33,843 bases of DNA from Acidobacteriaceae bacterium. Lineage in GTDB: Bacteria > Acidobacteriota > Terriglobia > Bryobacterales > Bryobacteraceae. Made by a program: the position numbers and the translations under genes. The notes beneath the pieces are model-generated. The model made no database searches. It was not told where the DNA came from and was given only the letters and a program-made list of their open reading frames with translations. Shown one piece after another: positions 9,212 through 33,843 of this stretch; within the stretch, counting starts at the first letter, position 1, and each line of letters begins with the position of its first letter. The DNA lies in the NCBI GenBank assembly GCA_020247055.1, contig JADCJL010000116.1:1-33843 (forward strand), given 5' to 3'.

Positions 9212-9289
9212 TGCTCTGAAACGGTGACGCAGCGAGGGAGCCAAGCGTGGACTAAAGTTCTGCTCCGCACAGCCGATAAACCGAAAAGA

Positions 9290-11429: not shown

Positions 11430-13784
11430 TTACCTCGGATTAAATCGGAAGTTACTCAAACCAAATACATCGTTGCCCGGAATATACAGCCCGAACTTAC
11501 CGGCGCTCAGGTTGCGGCCGGGCACGGAGAACGCATCGAGATCCACCCATTTGGCGCCGTTGTGCACGGAGTGCCGGACCCCGCCGGGAGCAATATCGAT
11601 CTGCATCGTGTAGCTCTCCTGCTTTTCAAGGTCATGCGCAATCTTATACTCGCTCGACTTCCCGTTCACCACATCCCGGCGGAAGAAGTTCTTCCGGTCT
11701 AACTGATAGAGCACATGGTTCTTGGCGTCGGTGTAGCTCACAAACCACTGCAGCCGCCGGCCCTTGAGCAGCCCGATGTTAAAAGTAAACGTCCCGTTGG
11801 CCGGAGTTATGCCGTACAGAACGAAGTTACCCCCTTTGTGCACCGTCCAGCCCTCCTGCGGCGTCCACTCCCCGGGCTGCTCCCAATCGACCATCGTACC
11901 CAGTTTCTTGGCGACCACCGGCTTCGGAATCTCTTTCAGCGCGATTTCGACGGTCTTGTTCTCGCCCGCCGCCACCTGCACCGTGGCCGTACCCTCGACG
12001 AAATTCGCCGCCCGGGCCACCACCACCCAACTCCCGGCGCCCAGGTTGATCGGGTTGCCGCTGGCCGGACGCAGTTGGGTCTCCTCGCTCTTGCGATAGA
12101 AAACCTGCGCGCCGGCCGGCTTCACATTCACGCGGATCGTCGAGGCCGCCGCCACCAGCGTCACATCCGCCCCGGCCAGCTCCACCGTCTCGCCGGCCCG
12201 GAACTGGCGCGGATGCCGCTTCGGCACAAAGGAATCCTTGCGGAACTCCACGGTATGCTCACCCGGCGGAATCGCCGTCGAGGCGTACCCCCCGTCGGCG
12301 CCAATCACCCCCAGGCTCTGCCCGTCGAGCAGCACCGCCGCACCGGGCGGTGCGCCGGCAATGCGCAGGCTCGCGAGCTTCGGAATCGCTTTCAGCGCGA
12401 ACTCTACCCTGGTCTCCTGTCCCTTGGCCAGCGTCACGGACTTGGCCGCTTCCACCGTGAAGCCCTCCTTGGCCACCCGCACGGTGTACTGCCGCACCGG
12501 CAGACCCAACAGCCTCAGCTGCCCGCCCTTGGTCTTCCGCTTGAGCTCCGTGTTGTTGAGGAACACTGTCACATCATCCAAATCGCCCGCCGCCACATAC
12601 AGGCTGCCCAGGTTCACATCCAGCTTCAAATACGCCGTCAGCGTCGGCTGCGGACCGGCCGACACCAGCAGCTTCCGCTCCACCGAACCATCGTTAATGG
12701 TCAACTCCCGGTCGCCGGCCGCCAGCGCCTCGAGACTCAGTCCGTTCGGCCCCGCGTCACCCGCCGCCTTGCCATCCACCTGCACCTTCACATTGGCCGA
12801 GGCGTGCACCCGGGCCGCATTGCCCGCGTTGGCCACCACAATCGCCAGAACATTGCGGGCCACCACCGGGCCGGTGATCACCGGGGCCTCCCCCAGCCGG
12901 GCCTCGAACGCAAACGCCGCCTCGGTCCCCTGATTGGCCACCTTCACCGCATGCTTGCCCGGCGCCACGCGGTCCAGCACCAACTGTCCATCCTGCAGGT
13001 CGCCGAGCGGATTGCCGTCCAGCGTCACCTTGCCCGCCTGCAGGTCGGTGAACAAGCGCACCGAAAGCGGCATCGGCTGCAGCGTCAGCGCCACTTCGCC
13101 CGGCGCTCCGCTTACCACGCGCAGCGGACTGGTGGCCGTTTCGTAGCCCGGCAGCACCGCCTGCACCTCGTAGGCGCCCGCCGGCAGCATGAGGCTGCAG
13201 TTCGACGTACACTTCAACTCCCCGTTCACCCGGATCGACGCGCCCTCGGGCGCGGTCCGGATGGCGATGCTGGCCGAACCGTCCGGGGCCTGCCGCTGCT
13301 CGGCCGCTTTCTTCTGCGCGTTGCGGATGGTGAAGATACCCGCGGCGGCGATCAGCAGCCCCACCACCCCGCCCACGGCCACGGCCCGTTTCCAGTTGAA
13401 GGCCTGCGGAGGCGGAGCCGCCGGGCCGGGTGGAGGCGCGGGCACCGGGTAGGCCGGTGGCTGCGCCGTCAGCGAACCGCTCGAAAAGACCTGCGTCGGC
13501 ATCTGCACCGGAGGCGCCAGGCCCCCGCCGGGCAGCTTCGCTGCGGCCTCCCGCTCCGCCGTGCTCTGCATCTCCACCAGCCGCTGCCCGAAGGCCACAA
13601 TCCGGCCGCGGACGTCACTGATCGCCGACTGAATGGCCGCATCGCCGGGGCAGGCCCGGCTGATCTCCTCAAGGCGGTAGAAAATCGGCTTCAGCTCGTC
13701 GAGCGCACGCGCCGCCCCAATCTGCCCATCCAAACGGCGGAGTTCGGTGAGGTAGGCGTCACGCTGGGCAGGGTTGATACTCAC
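11430..13784 (-). CDS. Membrane-anchored PEGA-repeat protein with C-terminal lectin-like domain
   Basis: A 784-residue protein in four parts. Residues 1-85 are helical and cytoplasmic; 86-128 are proline-rich; a single membrane helix spans about 134-153. The long outer part contains several PEGA-type beta repeats, seen in segments such as IRTAPEGASIRVNGE, LRIAGAPPGAAVLLDGQ and a repeated APGKHAVKV / PPGEHTVEF pattern. The last 170 residues (WEQPGEWTPQEGWTVHKGG to the end) look like a LamG/DUF1080-type jelly roll that may bind carbohydrate. PEGA domains are common in surface proteins of bacteria and archaea; there is no catalytic motif. The start is a GTG at 13784 with a strong Shine-Dalgarno AGGAG six bases upstream. 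It leads a two-gene unit with the epimerase, an odd pairing with no known precedent to me. Confidence 0.85.
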   Translation of the reverse strand: MSINPAQRDAYLTELRRLDGQIGAARALDELKPIFYRLEEISRACPGDAAIQSAISDVRGRIVAFGQRLVEMQSTAEREAAAKLPGGGLAPPVQMPTQVFSSGSLTAQPPAYPVPAPPPGPAAPPPQAFNWKRAVAVGGVVGLLIAAAGIFTIRNAQKKAAEQRQAPDGSASIAIRTAPEGASIRVNGELKCTSNCSLMLPAGAYEVQAVLPGYETATSPLRVVSGAPGEVALTLQPMPLSVRLFTDLQAGKVTLDGNPLGDLQDGQLVLDRVAPGKHAVKVANQGTEAAFAFEARLGEAPVITGPVVARNVLAIVVANAGNAARVHASANVKVQVDGKAAGDAGPNGLSLEALAAGDRELTINDGSVERKLLVSAGPQPTLTAYLKLDVNLGSLYVAAGDLDDVTVFLNNTELKRKTKGGQLRLLGLPVRQYTVRVAKEGFTVEAAKSVTLAKGQETRVEFALKAIPKLASLRIAGAPPGAAVLLDGQSLGVIGADGGYASTAIPPGEHTVEFRKDSFVPKRHPRQFRAGETVELAGADVTLVAAASTIRVNVKPAGAQVFYRKSEETQLRPASGNPINLGAGSWVVVARAANFVEGTATVQVAAGENKTVEIALKEIPKPVVAKKLGTMVDWEQPGEWTPQEGWTVHKGGNFVLYGITPANGTFTFNIGLLKGRRLQWFVSYTDAKNHVLYQLDRKNFFRRDVVNGKSSEYKIAHDLEKQESYTMQIDIAPGGVRHSVHNGAKWVDLDAFSVPGRNLSAGKFGLYIPGNDVFGLSNFRFNPR

Positions 13785-25698: not shown

Positions 25699-26934
25699 TT
25701 AGGGGATCGGATAGGTTTGGGTTGTGCCATCGAGACGGGCGACGCGGAGCGTTTTGCCGTTGGGCGAGAAATGGAGACCGGTGGGCCAGTCGGATTGACC
25801 GGCGAAGGTTTTGAGTTCGGTGAGATCGGCGGTGCGGAAGAGCTTGACGGTGCGGTCGGCGGCGCCGGTGGCGAGGGTACGGCCGTCGGGGGAGAAGGCG
25901 ATTTGGAGGATCGCGTCTTCGTGGGCGATCAGCGAGTTTTTGAGGGCGCCGGCTTTGGGGGAGAGCTCCCAGAGGCGGATGGACTTGTCGTTGCCGCCGG
26001 CGGCGACGAGTTTGCCGTCGGCGGAGATGGCCACGGCCTGCAGGGCGTCGGTGGGTTCGGAGAGGGTGAAGAGGCGTTCGCCGGTGGCGGGGTCCCAGAC
26101 TTTGACGGAGCGGTCGGCGGAAGCCGAGAGGAGGCGGGAGCCGTCGGGGGAGAAGGTAAGGGCGTAGACGGCGTCGACGTGATCTTTGAGAGGCCGGAGC
26201 TGTTGGCCGGTGGCGGTGTCCCAGAGGTAGATCATTTTGTCGTAGGAGGCGGTGGCGAGGGTTTTGCCGTCGGGGGAGAAGGCGACGGCGTAGATGCAGT
26301 CCTTGTGGCCGGTGAGGGTGAGGCGGACGGTTTTGGCGGCGAGGTCCCAGATTTTCACTTCGCCTTTCTGGGCGGGCAGGCCGCCGGCGGCGGCGAGCAG
26401 GGCGCCGTCCTTTGAGAAGGCGACGGCGCGGACGGTGGATTGATGGCCGGCGAGGGGGGCGCCGTTGAGGGTGACGACTTTGTGGCCGGCGTAGGCGGTG
26501 AGCGAGCCGTCGGCCGATTGAGCGGCGGCGAAGATCTGGGGCTTGGGGGCGAGGCGGGGGGCGATGTCGGGGATGGCGTTGGCGGAGCGGGGGGCGGCTT
26601 CGACGGCCGGGCCTTTGGCGCCGGCGTTGATCCAGTTTTTGATGACGTCGAGTTCGGCGGCGGCGAGGCTGCGGCCGTCCATGGGCATGAAGGGCTCTTT
26701 CTTGCCGGCGGCCATGAGATACAAGCGGCTCTCGTCGGCCTTGCCGGGGGTGACGATCTGGCCGTGGTTGCCGCCGGCGCGGATGCCGCCGATGGTTTCA
26801 AGGTCGAGCGAACCCATCTTGACGCCGTGGGCGTGGCAATCGAGGCAGTACTTGCGGAAGACGGGCTGCAGGTCCGCTTCGAAGTCCTGGGCGCGGCAGA
26901 GGGTGGCAGCAAGCAAGAGCAGGGTGGCGCGCAT
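25699..26934 (-). CDS. Planctomycete-type cytochrome c with WD40 beta-propeller
   Basis: A 411-residue exported protein with a signal peptide (to about residue 15). A PSCyt1-type cytochrome domain carries the heme motif C30-L-D-C33-H34 and extends to about residue 110, ending in the usual LDVIKNWINAGAKGP. A WD40 propeller of about six to seven blades follows, with typical GH...D and IWD/LWD/VWD ends (EVKIWDLAAKT, MIYLWDTATG, SVKVWDPATG). Fusion of a heme domain to a propeller is typical of these operons. It is assumed to pass electrons or organise partner proteins in the periplasm; the role is unknown. It lies one base after the PSCyt/PSD1 stop codon. Confidence 0.92.
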   Translation of the reverse strand: MRATLLLLAATLCRAQDFEADLQPVFRKYCLDCHAHGVKMGSLDLETIGGIRAGGNHGQIVTPGKADESRLYLMAAGKKEPFMPMDGRSLAAAELDVIKNWINAGAKGPAVEAAPRSANAIPDIAPRLAPKPQIFAAAQSADGSLTAYAGHKVVTLNGAPLAGHQSTVRAVAFSKDGALLAAAGGLPAQKGEVKIWDLAAKTVRLTLTGHKDCIYAVAFSPDGKTLATASYDKMIYLWDTATGQQLRPLKDHVDAVYALTFSPDGSRLLSASADRSVKVWDPATGERLFTLSEPTDALQAVAISADGKLVAAGGNDKSIRLWELSPKAGALKNSLIAHEDAILQIAFSPDGRTLATGAADRTVKLFRTADLTELKTFAGQSDWPTGLHFSPNGKTLRVARLDGTTQTYPIP

Positions 26935-26935
26935 G

Positions 26936-29338
26936 TCAGTAGTTGAAGAGGAACTCTTTGCTGGTGAGGAGGCTCCAGACGAGATCTTCGAGGCCTTCCT
27001 GTTTGGCGGCTTTGGCTTCGGCCCAGAGTTTGCTCATCTGCGCGGTTTCGTCGGGGCGGGGTGGGCGGGAGTAGGCGGTGAGATAGAGGTGTTCGATCAC
27101 CTTTTTCTCCGCGAGGCCGAGCTTGAGCAGCAGGGCGATGTTGCCCTGCGGGTCGGCGAGTTTCTTGTTGAGGGTGTCGCCGTTGATGACGTGGAGGGCC
27201 TGGGAGATGGACGGGTCGGAGCTGCGTTCGGCGGCGTCGCAGAGGATGCGTTCCGGGCGGCCGAAGGAGGTGAGGAACTGGCTCTGGACGCGGACGTCGG
27301 GCAGCTGCATGGCGCGGGTGCCGGCCGGGTAGCCGGCGAAGGCGGTGGGCACGCCGGTGACCTGGGACATGGCGTCGAGGAGGACTTCGGCGGGCAGGCG
27401 CTTGATGATGTACTTCGAGTAGAAGACGTTATCGGCCTGGTTGGTGGCGTTCGATTCTGAAGACAGCTGATAGGTGGCGCTGTTCATGATGGTGCGCATG
27501 AGGTGCTTCAGGTCGTAGCCGTGTTTGACGAAGTCGGCCGCGACGGCGGCGAAGAGCTCTTCGTTCGAAGCGGGGTTGGTGGCGCGGACGTCGTCGTAGG
27601 GGTGGACGATGCCGCGGCCGAGGAAGTTGGCCCAGACGCGGTTGACGATGTTGCGGGTGAAGTAGTCGTTGTCTTTGGTGAGCCAGTTGGCGAAGTGGAC
27701 GCGGCGGTCGGCGGTGGAGTCGAGCGGCATGGGCTGGCCGTCGAGGGGGGTGGGGGAGAGGGGGCGGAGGAGGCGGGGGTGGTTGATATCGCCGGAGGTT
27801 TTGGCGAAGACGACGTTGTCGGCGGCGGTGCTGCCGTTTTTGATACCGACACGGGCGAAGAGGTTGGCGAACTGATAGTACTGGCGCTGGGTCCACTTTT
27901 CCATGGGATGGTTGTGGCAGCGGGCGCAGGTGAGGCGCTGGCCGAGGAAGGCCTGCGTCACGTTTTCGGCCATTTCGATGGTGTCTTTGTGGAGGACGAA
28001 GTAGTTGAGCGCGCCGTTCTGGCGGGTGGAGCCGGCGCCGGTGAAGATATCGCGGGCGAACTGGTCCCAGGGTTTGTTGGCCTGGACGGAGTCGCGGATC
28101 CAGTTATAGAAGGCCCACATGGCCGGGGTGCGGAGTTTGCGGGAGCTGACGAGGAGGAGGTCGGAGAACTTATAGGCCCAGTAGTCGGCGTATTCGTCGC
28201 GGTTGAGGAGTTGGTCGATGACTTTGGCGCGTTTGTCGGGGGCGGGGTCGGCGAGGAAGGTTTCGACTTCACTGGCGGTGGGGAGGATGCCGGCGGCGTC
28301 GAGGTAGGCGCGGCGGAGGAAGGTGGAATCGTCGGCGAGTTGGGAGGGGGTAAGGTTGAGAGACTTCCACTTGGCGGCGGCGAGATGGTCGATGAAGTTG
28401 CGGGGCCGGAAATCGGAGACGGCGGGAGAGGGGTTGACGAAGGGGACGGTGACGCGGGCGTAGAGGACCTTGGAGGCGTACCAGAGCGTGATGGCGGATT
28501 CGCCGTGGCCGGTGAGTTTGACGAGGCCGGAGTCGTCGACGGTGGCGACGCCTTCGTTGGCGGAGGAGAACTTGACCCAGTTGGTGACGTCTTCGGTGCG
28601 GCCGTCGGAGTAGCGGGCGCGGACGATGAGCTGTTGCGTCGCGTTGGGGGCGAGGATGGAGGCGGGCGGGAAGACTTCGAGGCCGGTGACTTCGGGATCT
28701 TTTTCGGCGGGGGGCGGGGCGCCGGCGGCGATCCATTCGGCGAGGACGCGGTATTCGCGGGTATCCGTTTTGAAGCGGAGGCCGCCCATGTGGGGGATGG
28801 CGAAGGTGGGTTTGAGCAGGAGGAGGGAGCGGGCGGGTTCGGCGAGGTTGACGCGGCGGGCGGCGGATTGGCGGGTGAGAGCGTCGTAGTCGAGTTCGGG
28901 GTCGTAGCCGCGGAGGGTGAGTTTGAAGCCGTTTTTGCCGGCGAGCGCGCCGTGGCAGGCGCCCTGGTTGCAGCCGGTTTTGGTGAGGACCGGCATGACG
29001 TGATTTTTGAACGACCAGGTGAAGGGCGCGGTGGCGTTGCGGACGCGGACGGTGACCGAGGCCGAGAGGTTGTTGTGGCGGGCGGTGATGGTGGCTTCGC
29101 CGTCGGCTTTGGGGGTGACGAGGCCGGTGAGCGAGACGGCGGCGACGGCGGGATTGGAAGACGACCAGGCGGCGTGGCGGGTCCAGTCGGAGTGGACGCC
29201 GCCGTCGAGGAGGGCTTCGGCGAGCAGTTGCTGGCGGGATTCGGGGGTGGCGAGGGTCACCTCCTTCGGCAGAATGGAGAGCGACGGCGCGGCGGGCAGC
29301 AGGGCCGCGCTACAGCAGAGCAGAAGGATGAGGCGCAT
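26936..29338 (-). CDS. PSCyt1-PSCyt2(DUF1549)-PSD1(DUF1553) multidomain cytochrome protein with Ig-like domains
   Basis: An 800-residue exported protein (signal peptide about 1-17). Order: a Big_2-like domain (about 20-100), a PSCyt1-type segment with the heme-like motif C123-N-Q-G-A-C128-H129 (a CX4CH spacing), a second Big_2-like domain (about 225-305), DUF1549/PSCyt2 (about 315-520) holding CARCHNHP near 473, and DUF1553/PSD1 (about 535-790). This set is a hallmark of Planctomycetes, Verrucomicrobia and Solibacter-type Acidobacteria. The function is unknown; heme attachment suggests periplasmic redox work, and the genes often accompany sulfatases and glycan enzymes. It starts 3 bases after the DUF1501 stop and is followed one base later by the cytochrome-WD40 gene. 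Confidence 0.93.
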   Translation of the reverse strand: MRLILLLCCSAALLPAAPSLSILPKEVTLATPESRQQLLAEALLDGGVHSDWTRHAAWSSSNPAVAAVSLTGLVTPKADGEATITARHNNLSASVTVRVRNATAPFTWSFKNHVMPVLTKTGCNQGACHGALAGKNGFKLTLRGYDPELDYDALTRQSAARRVNLAEPARSLLLLKPTFAIPHMGGLRFKTDTREYRVLAEWIAAGAPPPAEKDPEVTGLEVFPPASILAPNATQQLIVRARYSDGRTEDVTNWVKFSSANEGVATVDDSGLVKLTGHGESAITLWYASKVLYARVTVPFVNPSPAVSDFRPRNFIDHLAAAKWKSLNLTPSQLADDSTFLRRAYLDAAGILPTASEVETFLADPAPDKRAKVIDQLLNRDEYADYWAYKFSDLLLVSSRKLRTPAMWAFYNWIRDSVQANKPWDQFARDIFTGAGSTRQNGALNYFVLHKDTIEMAENVTQAFLGQRLTCARCHNHPMEKWTQRQYYQFANLFARVGIKNGSTAADNVVFAKTSGDINHPRLLRPLSPTPLDGQPMPLDSTADRRVHFANWLTKDNDYFTRNIVNRVWANFLGRGIVHPYDDVRATNPASNEELFAAVAADFVKHGYDLKHLMRTIMNSATYQLSSESNATNQADNVFYSKYIIKRLPAEVLLDAMSQVTGVPTAFAGYPAGTRAMQLPDVRVQSQFLTSFGRPERILCDAAERSSDPSISQALHVINGDTLNKKLADPQGNIALLLKLGLAEKKVIEHLYLTAYSRPPRPDETAQMSKLWAEAKAAKQEGLEDLVWSLLTSKEFLFNY

Positions 29339-29341
29339 GGC

Positions 29342-30718
29342 TTAGGCGAAGAGTTCTTTGATGGGTTCGGTGCCGCGGTCGACGACGGGGATGGGGCGTC
29401 CCTGCGCGCCGGGCAGTTCGGTTTCAAGATCGATGCCGAGGCCTTTATAGATGGTCGCGGCGACTTCGGCCGGGGTGGTGGGACGGTCCTTGGGCATGGC
29501 GCCGATTTCGTCCGAGGCGCCGATGATGGTGCCGCCCTTGAGCGGGCCGCCGCCGGCGAGGATGGACCAGCACTGGGGCCAGTGGTCGCGGCCGCCGGCG
29601 GGATTGACCTTGGGGGTGCGGCCGAATTCGCCGGTGCCGATGACCATCGTGTTCGCGAGGAGGCCGCGCTGGGAGAGGTCTTCGAGCAGGGAGCTATAGG
29701 CCATGTCGAACATGGGGCCGACGAGGTCTTTGTAACAGGAGATGGGGGAGAAGGGCTTGGAGCCGTGGATGTCCCAGGTGATTTCGTCGAAGACCGTTTC
29801 GAACATGTTGATGGTGACGAAGCGGACGCCGGCTTCGACGAGGCGGCGGGCGAGGAGGCAGCTTTGGCCGAAGCGGTTGAGGCCGTACTTTTCGCGGACG
29901 GCTTCCGGTTCGCGATGGAGTTCGAAGGCGGCGCGGGCTTTGGCCGAGGACATGAGGGTGTAGGCCTGCTGGAAGCTGGAATCGAGCAGGCGGGCGTCCT
30001 GGGAGGTTTCAAACTTGCTGACGGATTTGTCGATGGCTTCGCGCCAGTTCTTCCGCCGGTCGACGCGGCTGGCCGAGAGGTAGTCGGGCGGAAGCATGTC
30101 GGGGACGCGGAAGTTGGGATCGGAGGGGTCGGCGTTGAGGATGAAGGGGTCGTAGGCTTTGCCGAGGTAGCCGGCGGCGTGACCGTGGGGCATGTTGCCG
30201 CCGGTGGCGCCGATGGGCCGGGGCAGGAGGATATTGGGCGGGACGTCGCCTTTCGAGCCGCGGAGTTTGCCGACGACGCAGCCGAAGTGGGGGTGTTCGA
30301 CGCCGCCCTGGAAGAGGCGGCCGGTCTGCATCATCTGGTGGCCGGTGTCGTGGACGGCGGCGGCGGTGTGGTACATGGACCGGACGATGGAGAACTTGTC
30401 GGCATGTTTGGCCATGCGGGGGAAGTTCTCGGAGATTTCGATGCCGGGGACGTTGGTTTTGATGGGCTTGTAGGGGCCGCGGATCTCGATGGGGGCGTTG
30501 GGTTTCATGTCCCAGGTGTCGAGCTGGGAAGGGCCGCCGACGAGCATCAGGAGGATGCAGTTGACGTCCTTTTTGGGGTCGACGGCGCCGTGGGCTTTGA
30601 GGCCGGCGAACTGGGCGAGGCCGAGGCCGAGGGTGGAAAGCGCTCCGGCGTGGAGGAAGTCCCGGCGCCGGGTTCCGTCGCAGAATTCAACAGGGCGATC
30701 CGCATCGAGGCGAAACAT
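29342..30718 (-). CDS. DUF1501 family protein, Tat-exported
   Basis: A 458-residue protein of the DUF1501 family, which has an alkaline-phosphatase/sulfatase-like fold and no assigned reaction. The Tat signal TRRRDFLHAG followed by a hydrophobic stretch lies in residues 16-40. Family segments include LMLVGGPSQLDTWDMKP, HDTGHQMMQTGR, VIGTGEFGRTPKVNPAGGRDHWPQ and a final ATIYKGLGID. I chose ATG 30718 over a GTG at 30724 because the Shine-Dalgarno AGGAG (30728-30724) stands 5 bases before the ATG but abuts the GTG. It is first in the operon with the PSCyt/PSD1, WD40-cytochrome and PPC genes. Confidence 0.94.
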   Translation of the reverse strand: MFRLDADRPVEFCDGTRRRDFLHAGALSTLGLGLAQFAGLKAHGAVDPKKDVNCILLMLVGGPSQLDTWDMKPNAPIEIRGPYKPIKTNVPGIEISENFPRMAKHADKFSIVRSMYHTAAAVHDTGHQMMQTGRLFQGGVEHPHFGCVVGKLRGSKGDVPPNILLPRPIGATGGNMPHGHAAGYLGKAYDPFILNADPSDPNFRVPDMLPPDYLSASRVDRRKNWREAIDKSVSKFETSQDARLLDSSFQQAYTLMSSAKARAAFELHREPEAVREKYGLNRFGQSCLLARRLVEAGVRFVTINMFETVFDEITWDIHGSKPFSPISCYKDLVGPMFDMAYSSLLEDLSQRGLLANTMVIGTGEFGRTPKVNPAGGRDHWPQCWSILAGGGPLKGGTIIGASDEIGAMPKDRPTTPAEVAATIYKGLGIDLETELPGAQGRPIPVVDRGTEPIKELFA

Positions 30719-30751
30719 AGGCACTCCTAAACCGAGTTCGGTGACTTGATT
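30719..30751 (-). promoter_or_regulatory. Ribosome-binding site and gap before the DUF1501 operon
   Basis: AGGAG at 30728-30724 (minus) decides the DUF1501 start at 30718. The 33-base gap to the upstream membrane-protein gene contains a TAGAAT that could be a -10 element, but no -35 is visible, so the operon may also be read through from the upstream gene. Confidence 0.4.
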
Positions 30752-31615
30752 CTATCGTAGCGCGGTAACCTGAACCGGGGCGGTAAACGCGGCGGTCTGG
30801 TTGCTTTCGTTGGCGAGCTGGAACGACACTTGTGCCCGGTTGGCGACGGGCATGACGCTGAGGAAGACGTCGGCCCACTGGCCGTTGGGATCGACTTCAA
30901 CGGGGTGCTGATCGGAGTCGCGGGATAGCGAACTGCCGACGAAGGAGGGCGCGTCGAGGGTGATGGAGAGGTCTTTGGTGAGGCCCGCGCCATGCAGGCG
31001 GTAGCGGCGGATGTGGTTGGCTTCGATGACGGGCGGTTCGAGCCGGTCGATGCGCAGGGTGGCGCGGGAGGGAGAGTTGCGGCAGGCGATGGCGGGCCCG
31101 ATCTCGCTGGCGGCGGGGTAGAGCGCACCGGCCGCATCGACACAGGAGACGCGATCTTTGGCGAAATCGAGGGTGCGAAAGGGTTGATAGAGTTGGACGG
31201 TGGCGCGCTGTTCGGCGCAAGGAATGCGCACGATGCGGCCGAGAAAGCCGGCGGCAGAGACGGCCGGGGCGCTTTGGCAGTTGACCTCCAAGCGGAAGAT
31301 GGCGCGGGGGACGGTGAGCCAGAGGGTGGCGAGGAGCAGCAGCAGGCCGAGGAAGTGAGCCGAGAACCGGCTGGCGCGATTGGGAGCCCAAAGCAGGTAG
31401 CCCATCACGGCGCGGTAGGGCCGGGTGTAACGGGATCCGGCCGTGACTAAGAGGCCCGTTACGGCGATGGCGAGGAGCGCCAGGACCAACAAGAGCAGAA
31501 ACAGAGAAGCGGCGATCGGCTCAAACAGCAGCCAATCGATAGAAAGGATCAGAAGCAGGAGATTGACCACAATCAATCCGGCGAGGAGAGTCTGCCTAAC
31601 AAGGAAACCGGGCAT
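30752..31615 (-). CDS. Unrecognised membrane protein with C-terminal beta domain
   Basis: 287 residues from ATG 31615, with a GGAG ten bases upstream; a TTG at 31672 would add 19 residues and is less likely. Three hydrophobic segments lie in the first half: LLAGLIVVNLLLLILSI, a long IAASLFLLLLVLALLAIAV run, and FLGLLLLLATLWLTV after a basic loop (RYTRPYR). The last 160 residues have four or five cysteines (NCQSAP, IPCAEQ, VSCVDA, ACRNSP) that could form disulfides in the periplasm, and then a beta-rich region. I recognise no family. It lies directly upstream of the DUF1501 operon on the same strand, so co-transcription is possible. Confidence 0.7.
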   Translation of the reverse strand: MPGFLVRQTLLAGLIVVNLLLLILSIDWLLFEPIAASLFLLLLVLALLAIAVTGLLVTAGSRYTRPYRAVMGYLLWAPNRASRFSAHFLGLLLLLATLWLTVPRAIFRLEVNCQSAPAVSAAGFLGRIVRIPCAEQRATVQLYQPFRTLDFAKDRVSCVDAAGALYPAASEIGPAIACRNSPSRATLRIDRLEPPVIEANHIRRYRLHGAGLTKDLSITLDAPSFVGSSLSRDSDQHPVEVDPNGQWADVFLSVMPVANRAQVSFQLANESNQTAAFTAPVQVTALR

Positions 31616-31838
31616 AGGACCGTAACTCCAAGCGGCGACCAATGCTGAGTGCGCCGCGGCGGGGATTCGCAAGGATCTTTTCTATGGGACCGTTACCCAC
31701 CGCACCAACGAGGCGACTAACGGCTTGTAAATTCCCAAGATAGCAAGAAAGCGGCGCGGCCACCGCCGCCGGATGTTACTATCTCGGCTGCCCGGCACGG
31801 AGAAGTCCCGCGAGGCGGGAGGCTTTGCGCGCGGGGGA
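31616..31838 (-). other. 223-base intergenic region
   Basis: The longest gene-free stretch of the window. It lies between the KASIII gene (ending 31839, minus) and the start of the membrane-protein gene. It holds the terminator described separately, a second GC hairpin (TCCCGC-GAG-GCGGGA, 31806-31820) without a T-run, and a weak promoter candidate on the minus strand, TTGGTG (31708-31703) and CATAGA (31686-31681) with a 16-base spacer. No open reading frame with a family match is seen in it. Confidence 0.5.
31744..31769 (-). terminator. Probable rho-independent terminator of the SGNH-ACP-KASIII operon
   Basis: On the minus strand a perfect six-base GC stem, GCGGCG / CGCCGC (31769-31764 with 31756-31751) and a seven-base loop, is followed at once by TTTCTT. 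It sits about 70 bases past the KASIII stop. The T-run is short and broken by a C, so efficiency is uncertain. Confidence 0.45.
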
Positions 31839-32765
31839 TCAGGCCTCGGCGAGGAGGGCGCCCCAGTGGAAGCCCGCGCCGAAGGCGGTGAAGCAGACAG
31901 GGGCGCCGGGGGGCCAGCCGCGTTCAGCCCATTCGGCGGCGGCGATGAGCATGCTGGCCGAGCTCGTGTTGCCGTAGCGGGCGATGTTCGAGTAAAAGCG
32001 TTCGGCGGGGACTTCGAGGGCCTGGGCCACGCGGTCGATGAGGTTCTGATTGGCCTGGTGCATCAGAAACGTACTGACATCGGCGGCCTGGCGGCCGTGG
32101 CGGGCGAGGAGTTCGCCGATGGCGCGCGGGACCTTGCGGGAGGCCTGCAGGATGACCGAACGGCCGTTCATCTCAAGGGGCCGGTCGAAGCTGAGCTTGA
32201 GATCTTCGGCAAAGGCGCCGTCGGAGTGGAGGGTGCTGCCGAGGACGCGAGCTTTGCCTTCGGTGGGGCTGACAAGACAGGCTCCGGCGCCATCGCCGAA
32301 CAGGATGGCGACCCCGCGTTCCATGGGCGGGCGGAGGACGACGCTGGACATCTTTTCGGCGCCGACGACGAGGATTTCGCCGATGCTGTCGCACAGGCGG
32401 GAGGCGAGGGCCATGGCGTAGAGGGTGCCGGCGCTGGCCATGGGGACGTCGAGAGCGGGAGTCGAGTCGAGGCCGAGGCGATGTGCGACAGTGGAGGCGG
32501 GTCCGGGGAACTGGCGGTCGGCGGTTCCGCTGGCGATCATGATCATGCCAAGGCTGGAGGCGGAGAGCCGAGCCTTATCGAGGCAGGCCTGGGCGGCGCG
32601 GAGGGCGAGGTCGGCGACCGATTCCTCGGGGGCGGCGAAGCGGCGCTGTTCGATGCCGCTTACGTTCTTGATCCATTCGGCGTCGCAGCCGACGTGGGCG
32701 CCGATTTCGGCGTTGGAGACAACGCGTTCCGGGAGGTAGGAGGCAAATTCGCGGAGAAAGGGCAA
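31839..32765 (-). CDS. KASIII (FabH-like) homologue with serine in place of the catalytic cysteine
   Basis: A 308-residue thiolase-fold protein of the 3-oxoacyl-ACP synthase III family. The His (H236, in MHQAN) and Asn (N266, in YGNTSS) of the Cys-His-Asn triad are present, as is the FGDGAGA motif. The nucleophile is not: the DVxxACxG motif reads DVPMASAG, with Ser111 (codon AGC at 32435-32433) where E. coli FabH has Cys112. A serine in this place is known in DpsC-type KASIII proteins, which act as acyl-transferring or unusual priming enzymes. It is therefore unlikely to be the housekeeping FabH. The start is a TTG at 32765, 5 bases after the ACP stop, with GGGAAG upstream. Confidence 0.88.
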   Translation of the reverse strand: MPFLREFASYLPERVVSNAEIGAHVGCDAEWIKNVSGIEQRRFAAPEESVADLALRAAQACLDKARLSASSLGMIMIASGTADRQFPGPASTVAHRLGLDSTPALDVPMASAGTLYAMALASRLCDSIGEILVVGAEKMSSVVLRPPMERGVAILFGDGAGACLVSPTEGKARVLGSTLHSDGAFAEDLKLSFDRPLEMNGRSVILQASRKVPRAIGELLARHGRQAADVSTFLMHQANQNLIDRVAQALEVPAERFYSNIARYGNTSSASMLIAAAEWAERGWPPGAPVCFTAFGAGFHWGALLAEA

Positions 32766-32770
32766 TGCGA

Positions 32771-33007
32771 TTACTTCCCGTGGTCCTCGAGATAGGACTC
32801 AATGCGCTCGATGGAGTCGAACTTCCGGGGGTTCAGGTCGGCGTCGGGGATCTTGAGGTCGAAGGCCTTTTCGAGGGCGGCGACGAGGTCGGCGAGGGCG
32901 AACGAGTCGAGCAGGCCGGAGTCGAACAGCGACTCGTCGGCTGCGGGGGCGATGGGTTTGCCGGCGATGCCGTTCAGGATTTCATTGATTTTCGTTCGTT
33001 TGTCCAT
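32771..33007 (-). CDS. Acyl carrier protein
   Basis: A 78-residue acidic helical protein with the acyl carrier plan. Ser35 in GLLDSFALADL is the 4'-phosphopantetheine attachment site (D-S-F in place of the usual D-S-L). The acidic helix 2 region and a final acidic IERIESYLEDHG are typical. It overlaps the SGNH gene upstream by 26 bases and precedes the Ser-KASIII gene by 5, so it is probably the dedicated carrier of this operon and not the fatty-acid synthesis ACP (which would sit with fabD/fabG/fabF). Confidence 0.9.
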   Translation of the reverse strand: MDKRTKINEILNGIAGKPIAPAADESLFDSGLLDSFALADLVAALEKAFDLKIPDADLNPRKFDSIERIESYLEDHGK

Positions 33008-33843
33008 TGATGATTCGTACCGCTGTGGGGATGACCGTAGAATCGCTCGCCGTGCGAGCGGGGAGGGCCTCGCTGCGCACGCGCTGATAGGTGGCGTATT
33101 GGGCCATCAATTCCTTATACAATGCCGCACCGAGAAGACGGTAGCCGTCCGCGGTGAAATGTACGTAATCTCTTTGGGCGAGGCCGGCGGTGACCCAGCG
33201 GCCCATGGCGCCTTTGCCGCCCGTGCGCTCGCGGAGATCCCAGAAGGCGGCGCCGGCGGCGCCGGCGGCGGCGCGCTGGGCTTCGAGGATGAGGTCGATT
33301 TTCGGGTGGGATTCCAGGCGGCCACCGGAGCGATAGAAGTGGTCCGGGGGGCCGATGACGAGGAGGGAGGCGGTGGGGGCGAGGCGGCGGAAGCGGGCGA
33401 GGAGCTGCGTGAACATGTCGCGGTAGGATGCAAAGGTCCAATCGCGGTTGCGGGCTTCGTTGGTGCCGTAGGCAAGGATGATGAGGGCCGGAGGGCGGCG
33501 GTGGAAGTAGCCGGCGAGGACGGTCTCTTCCCAGCGGAGGCCGATGCTGGCCTGGGCGCCGTTCATGCCGAGCATGTCGTAGGTGAGGCCGCGGGTGTTT
33601 TCGGCGACCCAGCCGAACAGGCGCACGGGACCGCCGTGGGTGCGGGCGGTGAAGCGGTGGGGGCCGGGCTGGACGGGGAGAGAATAGACGCCGGGGCCGG
33701 GTTCGCCCTCGGTGGAGATCGTCTCGAGGACCGTCCCATTATCGGAGATTTCGACGCGGCCGCCGCCGGGTTGGCGGAGGAAGTGGAGTTCGGCCGAGGC
33801 GCAATCGGCTTCGAGGGTGACGGATTCGCCGGCGCGGCGGGTG
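32982..33843 (-). CDS. SGNH/GDSL hydrolase, Ape-like (5' end outside window)
   Basis: The open frame continues past the window edge, so the N-terminus is missing; 286 residues are visible. About 70 residues of beta-rich sequence come first (segments such as SVTLEADCASAELHFLRQ), followed by SGNH blocks: DMLGMNGAQAS (block II), LAYGTNEA (block III, GTNE) and DYVHFTADGY (block V, Asp-x-x-His). The nucleophile block I (GDS-type) is not in view. Peptidoglycan O-acetylesterases of the Ape1 type have a beta domain inserted between block I and the rest, and this protein matches that plan. It overlaps the ACP gene by 26 bases. Release or transfer of an acyl group on a cell-wall or surface glycan is the inferred role. 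Confidence 0.82.
   Translation of the reverse strand, partial: TRRAGESVTLEADCASAELHFLRQPGGGRVEISDNGTVLETISTEGEPGPGVYSLPVQPGPHRFTARTHGGPVRLFGWVAENTRGLTYDMLGMNGAQASIGLRWEETVLAGYFHRRPPALIILAYGTNEARNRDWTFASYRDMFTQLLARFRRLAPTASLLVIGPPDHFYRSGGRLESHPKIDLILEAQRAAAGAAGAAFWDLRERTGGKGAMGRWVTAGLAQRDYVHFTADGYRLLGAALYKELMAQYATYQRVRSEALPARTASDSTVIPTAVRIINGQTNENQ

Follow-up and report, generated by a model that had tools for sequence, protein, structure and literature searches.

A conserved five-gene MBOAT–SGNH operon of Bryobacteraceae with a dedicated acyl carrier protein and a serine-type KASIII, probably for O-acylation of an envelope glycan

The stretch of DNA analysed here (hereafter, the window) comprises 33,843 nucleotides from an Acidobacteriaceae bacterium of the family Bryobacteraceae (assembly GCA_020247055.1, contig JADCJL010000116.1, positions 1 to 33,843), and its final part carries three genes read from the minus strand. 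The last of these in the direction of reading (31839..32765; 308 residues, TTG start) encodes a homologue of β-ketoacyl-acyl carrier protein synthase III (KASIII), in which Ser111 (codon AGC, 32433..32435) stands at the position of the catalytic Cys of FabH, together with His236 in an HQAN motif (codon 32058..32060) and Asn266 in an NTSS motif (codon 31968..31970). It is preceded, across a gap of 5 bases, by the gene for a dedicated, DltC-like acyl carrier protein (ACP) of 78 residues (32771..33007), with Ser35 (codon TCG, 32903..32905) as the phosphopantetheine site within a DSF motif; this gene in turn overlaps by 26 bases that of an Ape1-like SGNH protein, termed SGNH-B, whose 3' part occupies 32982..33843. 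All three score above the Pfam cut-offs: the KASIII with its C and N domains (4.6e-24 and 1.9e-16, respectively), the ACP with PP-binding (5.8e-9) and SGNH-B with Lipase_GDSL_2 (5e-13). An earlier note, made from the letters of the window, had described the three KASIII residues, the short spacing and the overlap, and all are as it stated.

The window ends with its contig, inside the SGNH-B gene. A DNA search of the same genome yielded contig C348 (12965 bases; locus L009), which overlaps the final 366 bases of the window with 3 mismatches (window 33478-33843 corresponds to L009 12600-12965). The mismatches are likely to reflect strain variation in the assembly, and we infer that C348 directly adjoins the window, a placement supported by the identical gene order seen on single contigs of other genomes. 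Once continued into C348, where it starts at 12049 on the plus strand, SGNH-B is 470 residues long. Upstream of it lie the genes for a membrane-bound O-acyltransferase (MBOAT; L009 9240-10655, plus strand, with a conserved start, MLLSSS, at 9258; Pfam MBOAT, 3.4e-24) and for a second SGNH protein, SGNH-A (L009 10659-12044, plus strand), both of which the earlier note had predicted. The result is a five-gene operon with a single direction, MBOAT–SGNH-A–SGNH-B–ACP–KASIII, in which MBOAT and SGNH-A are separated by 3 bases and SGNH-A and SGNH-B by 4.

Of 121 genomes of the family, 61 encode an orthologue of the KASIII (E below 1e-80); 60 of these loci were fetched, the 61st orthologue being that of the window itself. 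Ser111 is found in all 61, His236 in all 60 that reach it and Asn266 in 59 of 59. The full gene order is seen in 41 of the 60 loci and in one more, where the match to the KASIII is broken into two parts. Matches in two pieces were noted at L094 and L100, in two draft genomes, and are apparently interrupted frames or assembly errors. The remaining 18 loci hold parts of the operon: four are without the MBOAT, seven are without both the MBOAT and SGNH-A alongside (several of these at contig ends), five consist of ACP–KASIII alone, one reads ACP–KASIII–MBOAT, and one (L044) has the operon without the ACP, a copy of which is encoded elsewhere in the same genome. The dedicated ACP therefore adjoins the KASIII in 59 of 60 loci and is supplied in trans in the 60th.

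The association extends beyond linkage. SGNH-A has orthologues (E up to 1e-60) in 60 of the 121 genomes: both proteins occur in 58, neither in 58, the KASIII alone in three (G067, G073 and G103) and SGNH-A alone in two (G019 and G059). The corresponding Fisher probability, 3.5e-28, is uncorrected for kinship and serves as a guide only, because related genomes are not independent. In each of the six genera with both states, the two genes were gained or lost together; the five exceptions each come from a different genus outside these six. Among them, G059 is cut by a contig end, the loci of G103 and G067 (L070 and L091) end shortly upstream of SGNH-B, and in G073 another MBOAT adjoins ACP–KASIII. 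At the locus of G019 (L235, 3130-5808), a transposase gene lies about 1 kb past the ACP, at the expected site of the KASIII, and the other four genes are kept. In six genomes with split operons (G032, G083, G024, G089, G119 and G104), MBOAT and SGNH-A are adjacent to each other elsewhere in the genome; they are joined there by SGNH-B in five, whereas in G104 SGNH-B has stayed with ACP–KASIII.

The operon appears to be complete in itself. When 904 predicted genes across 73 loci were clustered (using a home-made gene picker with a floor of 60 residues), nothing besides the five genes recurred in more than 11 loci. That number was reached by a gene of the metallo-beta-lactamase fold (checked against Pfam for L235 10036-11046 only); a small gene, zinc-ribbon-like by eye, followed in eight loci, and an unnamed gene in six (L210-L215). 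All other neighbour families were confined to four loci or fewer, and no AMP ligase, dehydratase or glycosyltransferase appeared as a further conserved gene in the families shared by more than two of the 73 loci.

The gene set is also conserved well outside its own genome, as the earlier note had required of it, and outside the family. When 396 genomes of the phylum were searched, with at most five candidates scored per genome, 13 places exceeded 350 bits, three of them in the family itself; the next score was 273. All ten places outside the family have Ser; six belong to the same class and share the gene order, and four are more distant. Among the latter, L218 and L219 have ACP–KASIII converging on SGNH-B, MBOAT and SGNH-A of the opposite strand; at L216, the contig ends after SGNH-A. 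Five weaker places, below the Ser clade, were read and all have Cys. In a scan of species genomes (590 stretches), Ser together with the ACP was found in four of the best 80 of 589 relatives, namely, Acidobacteriales bin_225, Bryobacterales bog_224, Acidobacteriaceae bog_226 and Bryobacter CoA8 (L101-L104); the other 76 have Cys, and ACP, SGNH and MBOAT went unmatched at E 1e-3 in the DNA fetched around them, which was short for some.

For the residue counts that follow, rows longer than 85% of the query were taken from 75 loci and the window's own genome. In the KASIII clade, Ser is present in 74 of 74 sequences, His in 74 and Asn in 73, with one gap; the KASIII of L099 (212 residues, with Ser) was left out of the 75-row set for its length. 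The invariance of Ser that the earlier note had proposed to check thus holds both in the family and in this wider set. Sequencing error or chance at Ser111 is ruled out by the same count and by its recurrence in dozens of genomes. The idea that the Ser protein is the sole FabH is likewise ruled out: the genome has a separate, ordinary Cys-type FabH elsewhere. The protein scores 226.5 bits with the NCBIfam fabH model TIGR00747, below its cut-off of 292.1, and 257.4 bits with the broader NF006829, above its cut-off of 249. Among the best 60 of 169 PDB matches, its profile is closest to an ordinary FabH (2ebd, 264 bits), and no DpsC entries were identified there.

Trees built from 74 Ser and 82 Cys sequences recover the Ser group as monophyletic (FastTree, 0.997; SH-aLRT, 99.8). 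Its nearest relatives in both trees are the Cys sequences of L220 and L222, and the group of 76 formed with these two has support of 0.998 and 99.4, respectively. The operon of L220 consists of SGNH-B, MBOAT, SGNH-A, ACP and KASIII, and the genome of L222 has SGNH-B, MBOAT, SGNH-A and ACP at another place (L236). Since these Cys-type sisters have the same partners, the gene partnership seems to be older than the Ser. The earlier note had held that Cys at residue 111 in close homologues of the operon would refute its proposal: such a Cys does occur outside the Ser clade, in the sister group (L220), and does not occur inside it. The Ser codons of the clade are AGC or AGT in 70 cases and TCG or TCC in four, and the Cys codon of L220 is TGC; a single step leads from TGC to Ser, and later changes of codon family kept Ser, a pattern to be expected were the Ser itself under conservation.

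This bears on one alternative, that the Ser protein is a malonyl-ACP decarboxylase: a general transacylase would malonylate the ACP, the Ser protein would yield acetyl-ACP for the MBOAT, and the rest of the pathway proposed below would be unchanged. Both His236 and Asn266 are kept, and the His and Asn of KAS enzymes serve decarboxylation; however, a nucleophilic Ser retained through a change of codon family points to a covalent acyl-Ser, and the decarboxylase KS domains of polyketide synthases carry Gln instead. We regard this alternative as unlikely, notwithstanding that a proteobacterial malonyl-ACP decarboxylase, which supports fatty acid and envelope synthesis, is described in PMC8666670.

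The partners of the KASIII point to a carrier-dependent acylation pathway. The DSF motif of the ACP is present in 75 of 75 rows, and the best PDB match of its profile is the DltC of DltB-DltC complexes, in agreement with the likeness to DltC that had been suggested, although its score with the DltC equivalog model is 40.5 bits against a cut-off of 68. The MBOAT profile matches only DltB in the PDB (E up to 0.01), with 167.4 bits against the DltB equivalog cut-off of 375. Its His288 and His327 are present in 55 of 55 rows, and the six C-terminal residues conform to FxYxxF in all 55, including the divergent MBOAT of L069; in the operon of the window they read FIYTNF, with Tyr468 as the tyrosine. 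An AMP ligase, which the earlier note had suggested might lie upstream, is absent from the operon: no DltA-type ligase is encoded in it or recurs nearby in the 73 loci, and none of eight genomes examined has a protein over the DltA cut-off (TIGR01734), against two of 14 control genomes. Weaker AMP-binding relatives occur in all eight, so a ligase elsewhere in the genome is possible. A separate DltX is not present between the genes, the gaps of 3-5 bases being too small; no search for such a tiny gene was made elsewhere.

Both SGNH proteins retain the catalytic Ser, Asn and Asp-x-x-His (58 of 58 rows for SGNH-A and 63 of 63 for SGNH-B). Both are closest to Ape1 structures, as the label Ape-like had implied: most of each sequence can be aligned with Neisseria Ape1 (4k3u and sister entries) and with a Campylobacter O-acetylesterase (8gkd; 8gld, of the same title, is also matched), with 185 and 127 bits, respectively, for SGNH-B and 114 and 73 bits for SGNH-A. 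Passages of PMC12115436 identify 8gkd as the Campylobacter enzyme, and those of PMC6174289 identify 4k7j as NmApe and describe an Ape1 SGNH domain with an inserted carbohydrate-binding-like module; at the level of sequence, the profile alignments of both SGNH-B and SGNH-A to 4k3u span this module. The families reported as matches of the SGNH proteins do not include DltD. Hydrophobic N-terminal segments, on a simple scale, are seen in 48 of 58 SGNH-A rows and 46 of 63 SGNH-B rows, and on this basis both proteins are probably exported; the segment of the SGNH-A studied here is marginal (1.63 against a threshold of 1.6). SGNH-A is the likelier transferase of the pair, because it lies beside the MBOAT in all six split operons read. 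The block II Gly was tried as a sign of esterase or transferase character and dropped, as the passages of two papers disagree on PatB.

The closeness of both SGNH proteins to Ape1 esterases would fit a quite different account, in which the set is catabolic or functionally unrelated, SGNH-A and SGNH-B stripping acyl groups and ACP–KASIII serving lipid metabolism. The presence of an MBOAT with FxYxxF and of a DltC-like ACP, together with the close co-occurrence even of unlinked parts, argues against it, as does the separate Cys-type FabH in the same genome, and we consider it most improbable.

We favour a different interpretation, in which the five-gene operon probably serves the O-acylation of a cell-envelope glycan with the ACP as acyl donor. 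A thioester, probably a short acyl-CoA, would acylate Ser111 of the Ser-KASIII, which would then load the acyl group onto the dedicated ACP, at its phosphopantetheine, with no condensation, thereby replacing DltA. From the ACP, the MBOAT, using His327, would move the group across the membrane onto its own Tyr468; SGNH-A would accept it on its Ser and transfer it to the glycan; and SGNH-B, the more Ape1-like of the two, would either de-acylate (edit) the glycan or act as a second transferase. The earlier note's proposal of a pathway that moves an acyl group from ACP to an envelope glycan is supported to this extent, the transfer itself being what the sequences would predict. Acyl-CoA:ACP transacylation is, by analogy, the most likely role of the Ser-KASIII, because DltA is missing, the Ser-KASIII stands in its place and DpsC offers a precedent. 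The nature of the acyl group, the division of labour between the SGNH proteins and the target are similarly read from sequence: a Phe occupies the pocket-cap position of E. coli FabH in 67 of 74 sequences of the Ser clade (and in 55 of 80 of the Cys type), a hint of a short acyl group, and peptidoglycan is a guess made from the likeness to Ape1. The anatomy of this conserved, self-contained, carrier-dependent MBOAT–SGNH system with a Ser-KASIII is certain and the pathway is likely; we infer its chemistry.

Several observations weigh against this interpretation. In genome G058, the ACP lies outside the operon, and G019 has MBOAT–SGNH-A–SGNH-B–ACP, with the transposase gene beyond, and no Ser-KASIII was found in it. 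The Cys-type KASIII with the same partners in L220 means that the system does not depend on Ser in every case. A short-chain dehydrogenase-like gene (by eye), possibly a reductase, lies near four of the 73 loci. PatB entries are absent from the 14 and 16 PDB matches of the SGNH proteins at E 0.1, the presence of such entries in the PDB copy being unchecked. The third residue of the putative triad is Asn, as in FabH, and not Asp as in DpsC. Finally, three arginines differ: Arg at position 35 is present in 78 of 80 Cys sequences and in none of the 74 of the Ser clade; Arg at 150 is present in 80 of 80 and is retained in 38 of the 74, with Lys in a further 19; and Arg at 241, five residues after the catalytic His, is present in 80 of 80 and replaced in the Ser clade by Asn (73 of 74) or His (one). 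Positions 35 and 241 separate the Ser clade and its sisters from the 80 Cys-type FabH proteins. We take the former to be Arg36 of E. coli FabH, near CoA, and the latter to be Arg249, in the ACP docking site. CoA or ACP may thus be bound in another way, and the donor may be something other than CoA.

The loss of the arginines at 35 and, otherwise strictly kept, at 241 would also suit an exchange between carrier proteins, the Ser-KASIII shifting an acyl group from the ACP of fatty acid synthesis to the dedicated ACP, in which case the decoration could be a longer chain. The pocket-cap Phe would instead favour short chains, although this residue is a poor predictor of chain length according to passages of PMC12664062; we hold such an exchange to be quite unlikely.

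Transacylation from acyl-CoA, our preferred role, would make the operon an example of a third way of charging an MBOAT–SGNH pathway, and on balance we lean towards this view: neither direct use of acyl-CoA, as by PatA, nor an ATP-dependent ligase and carrier, as in DltA/DltC, but a KASIII that has become an acyl-CoA:ACP transacylase and uses a Ser-His-Asn triad. The ACP and Ser-KASIII would together form a portable cassette for acyl-ACP supply that evolved once, from a Cys-type forerunner whose partners were already the same. The pair is found in the main module, with other MBOATs (L069 and L217) and near flagellin genes (L065 and L084). At L069 (8989-13688), a methyltransferase-like gene, the ACP and the Ser-KASIII are accompanied by the divergent MBOAT, which ends in FLYYFF, and by an unassigned protein without a Pfam match. 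In L217 (1-14918), the pair lies in a sugar cluster of the nonulosonic-acid type, with a different MBOAT and an unassigned protein; the cluster includes NeuC, WbuX, HisH, a sugar nucleotidyltransferase-like gene and a PseF-like enzyme (below its cut-off). At L065 (4934-9058) and L084 (5234-10903), stand-alone pairs adjoin very large flagellin frames of 917 and 1231 residues, respectively, with a GDP-fucose synthase-like gene in L065 and FliW and CsrA in L084. A use of these two pairs in flagellin glycan acylation is possible.

Such settings recall the viosamine island of a Pseudomonas, in which, according to passages of PMC3927599, an ACP and a KASIII are found, and they raise the alternative that the KASIII condenses, giving a 3-oxo or 3-hydroxyacyl decoration of the kind proposed to arise through VioS, VioR and an ACP in flagellin viosamine. 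The pairs beside flagellin genes and in the nonulosonic-acid cluster, the Cys kept by the sister KASIII proteins and the dehydrogenase-like gene near a few loci would all be in keeping with this. Ser is nevertheless expected to be poor at Claisen condensation and no reductase recurs beyond those few loci; condensation is accordingly, in our estimation, very unlikely.

Other features of the window are less informative. A terminator-like stem with a T-rich tail lies 3' of the KASIII gene (31750..31770, minus strand), a weak signal given two such sites in the region against 1.3 in shuffles. No sigma-70-like promoters were found in 31600-33843, and no RNA elements over threshold in L009 8300-12965. 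Beyond the operon, three consecutive genes (25699-30724) encode a WD40-repeat-like protein, a large protein with an Ig-like start and a third that is of DUF1501 type by eye; gene sets of this kind are frequent in related soil bacteria.

An operon of this composition was not found described in open full texts, a scope that leaves subscription papers and preprints outside; literature that joins MBOAT, SGNH and carrier protein includes PMC12148441, PMC9558356 and PMC12419801, and the passages available from the first of these describe a carrier-protein donor for an MBOAT–SGNH pathway for D-alanine only. If the proposal is correct, envelope acylation supplied by a carrier protein reaches beyond Dlt, a KASIII has come to serve as an ACP loader via a change of Cys to Ser, and members of a common soil phylum acylate their envelope. 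The Cys-type sister with the same partners would then provide a natural before-and-after pair for the conversion of a condensing enzyme to a transacylase.

Set beside known KASIII enzymes, the Ser protein resembles FabH in its whole-length homology and in keeping His and Asn, and differs from it in the change of Cys to Ser and in the loss of the two arginines at 35 and 241. With DpsC, a priming Ser-type KASIII of type II polyketide synthases that, in the passages available from a review (PMC12664062), acylates itself, transfers the acyl group to its ACP and has the triad S118-H297-D302, it shares the Ser nucleophile and the His on a KASIII sequence, as well as a cognate ACP; in contrast to DpsC, the position five after the His is Asn in 73 of 74 sequences and not Asp (matched by counting, not by alignment), and polyketide genes were not seen at the loci read. 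Its Ser-His-Asn triad is neither that of FabH nor that of DpsC. VioS and its ACP are likewise a dedicated pair for the acyl decoration of a sugar, but that set includes the reductase VioR and yields a nucleotide sugar that bears a 3-hydroxy-1-oxobutyl group (passages of PMC3927599), whereas here there is generally no reductase and a membrane export module is present.

As regards the acylation module, the operon resembles PatA-PatB-Ape1, which serves peptidoglycan O-acetylation in Gram-negative bacteria, in having three such genes in a row, an MBOAT with a catalytic His and a C-terminal FxYxxF, and apparently exported SGNH partners, of which one or both are Ape1-like. Passages of PMC12148441 describe how the Tyr of this motif is acetylated in PatA and passes the group to the SGNH partner; there, MBOAT/SGNH pathways other than Dlt are without a carrier protein and PatA uses acetyl-CoA directly. 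Unlike that system, the operon has a dedicated ACP and a Ser-KASIII, and both of its SGNH proteins are Ape1-like, neither being PatB-like. With the Dlt pathway of teichoic acid D-alanylation (DltA, DltB, DltC, DltD and DltX) it shares a carrier-protein donor and an MBOAT of the DltB family, DltC and DltB being the closest solved structures. It departs from Dlt in that the operon has a KASIII as its proposed loader in place of a DltA-type ligase, and in that the FxYxxF shuttle motif is fused to the MBOAT rather than carried on DltX.

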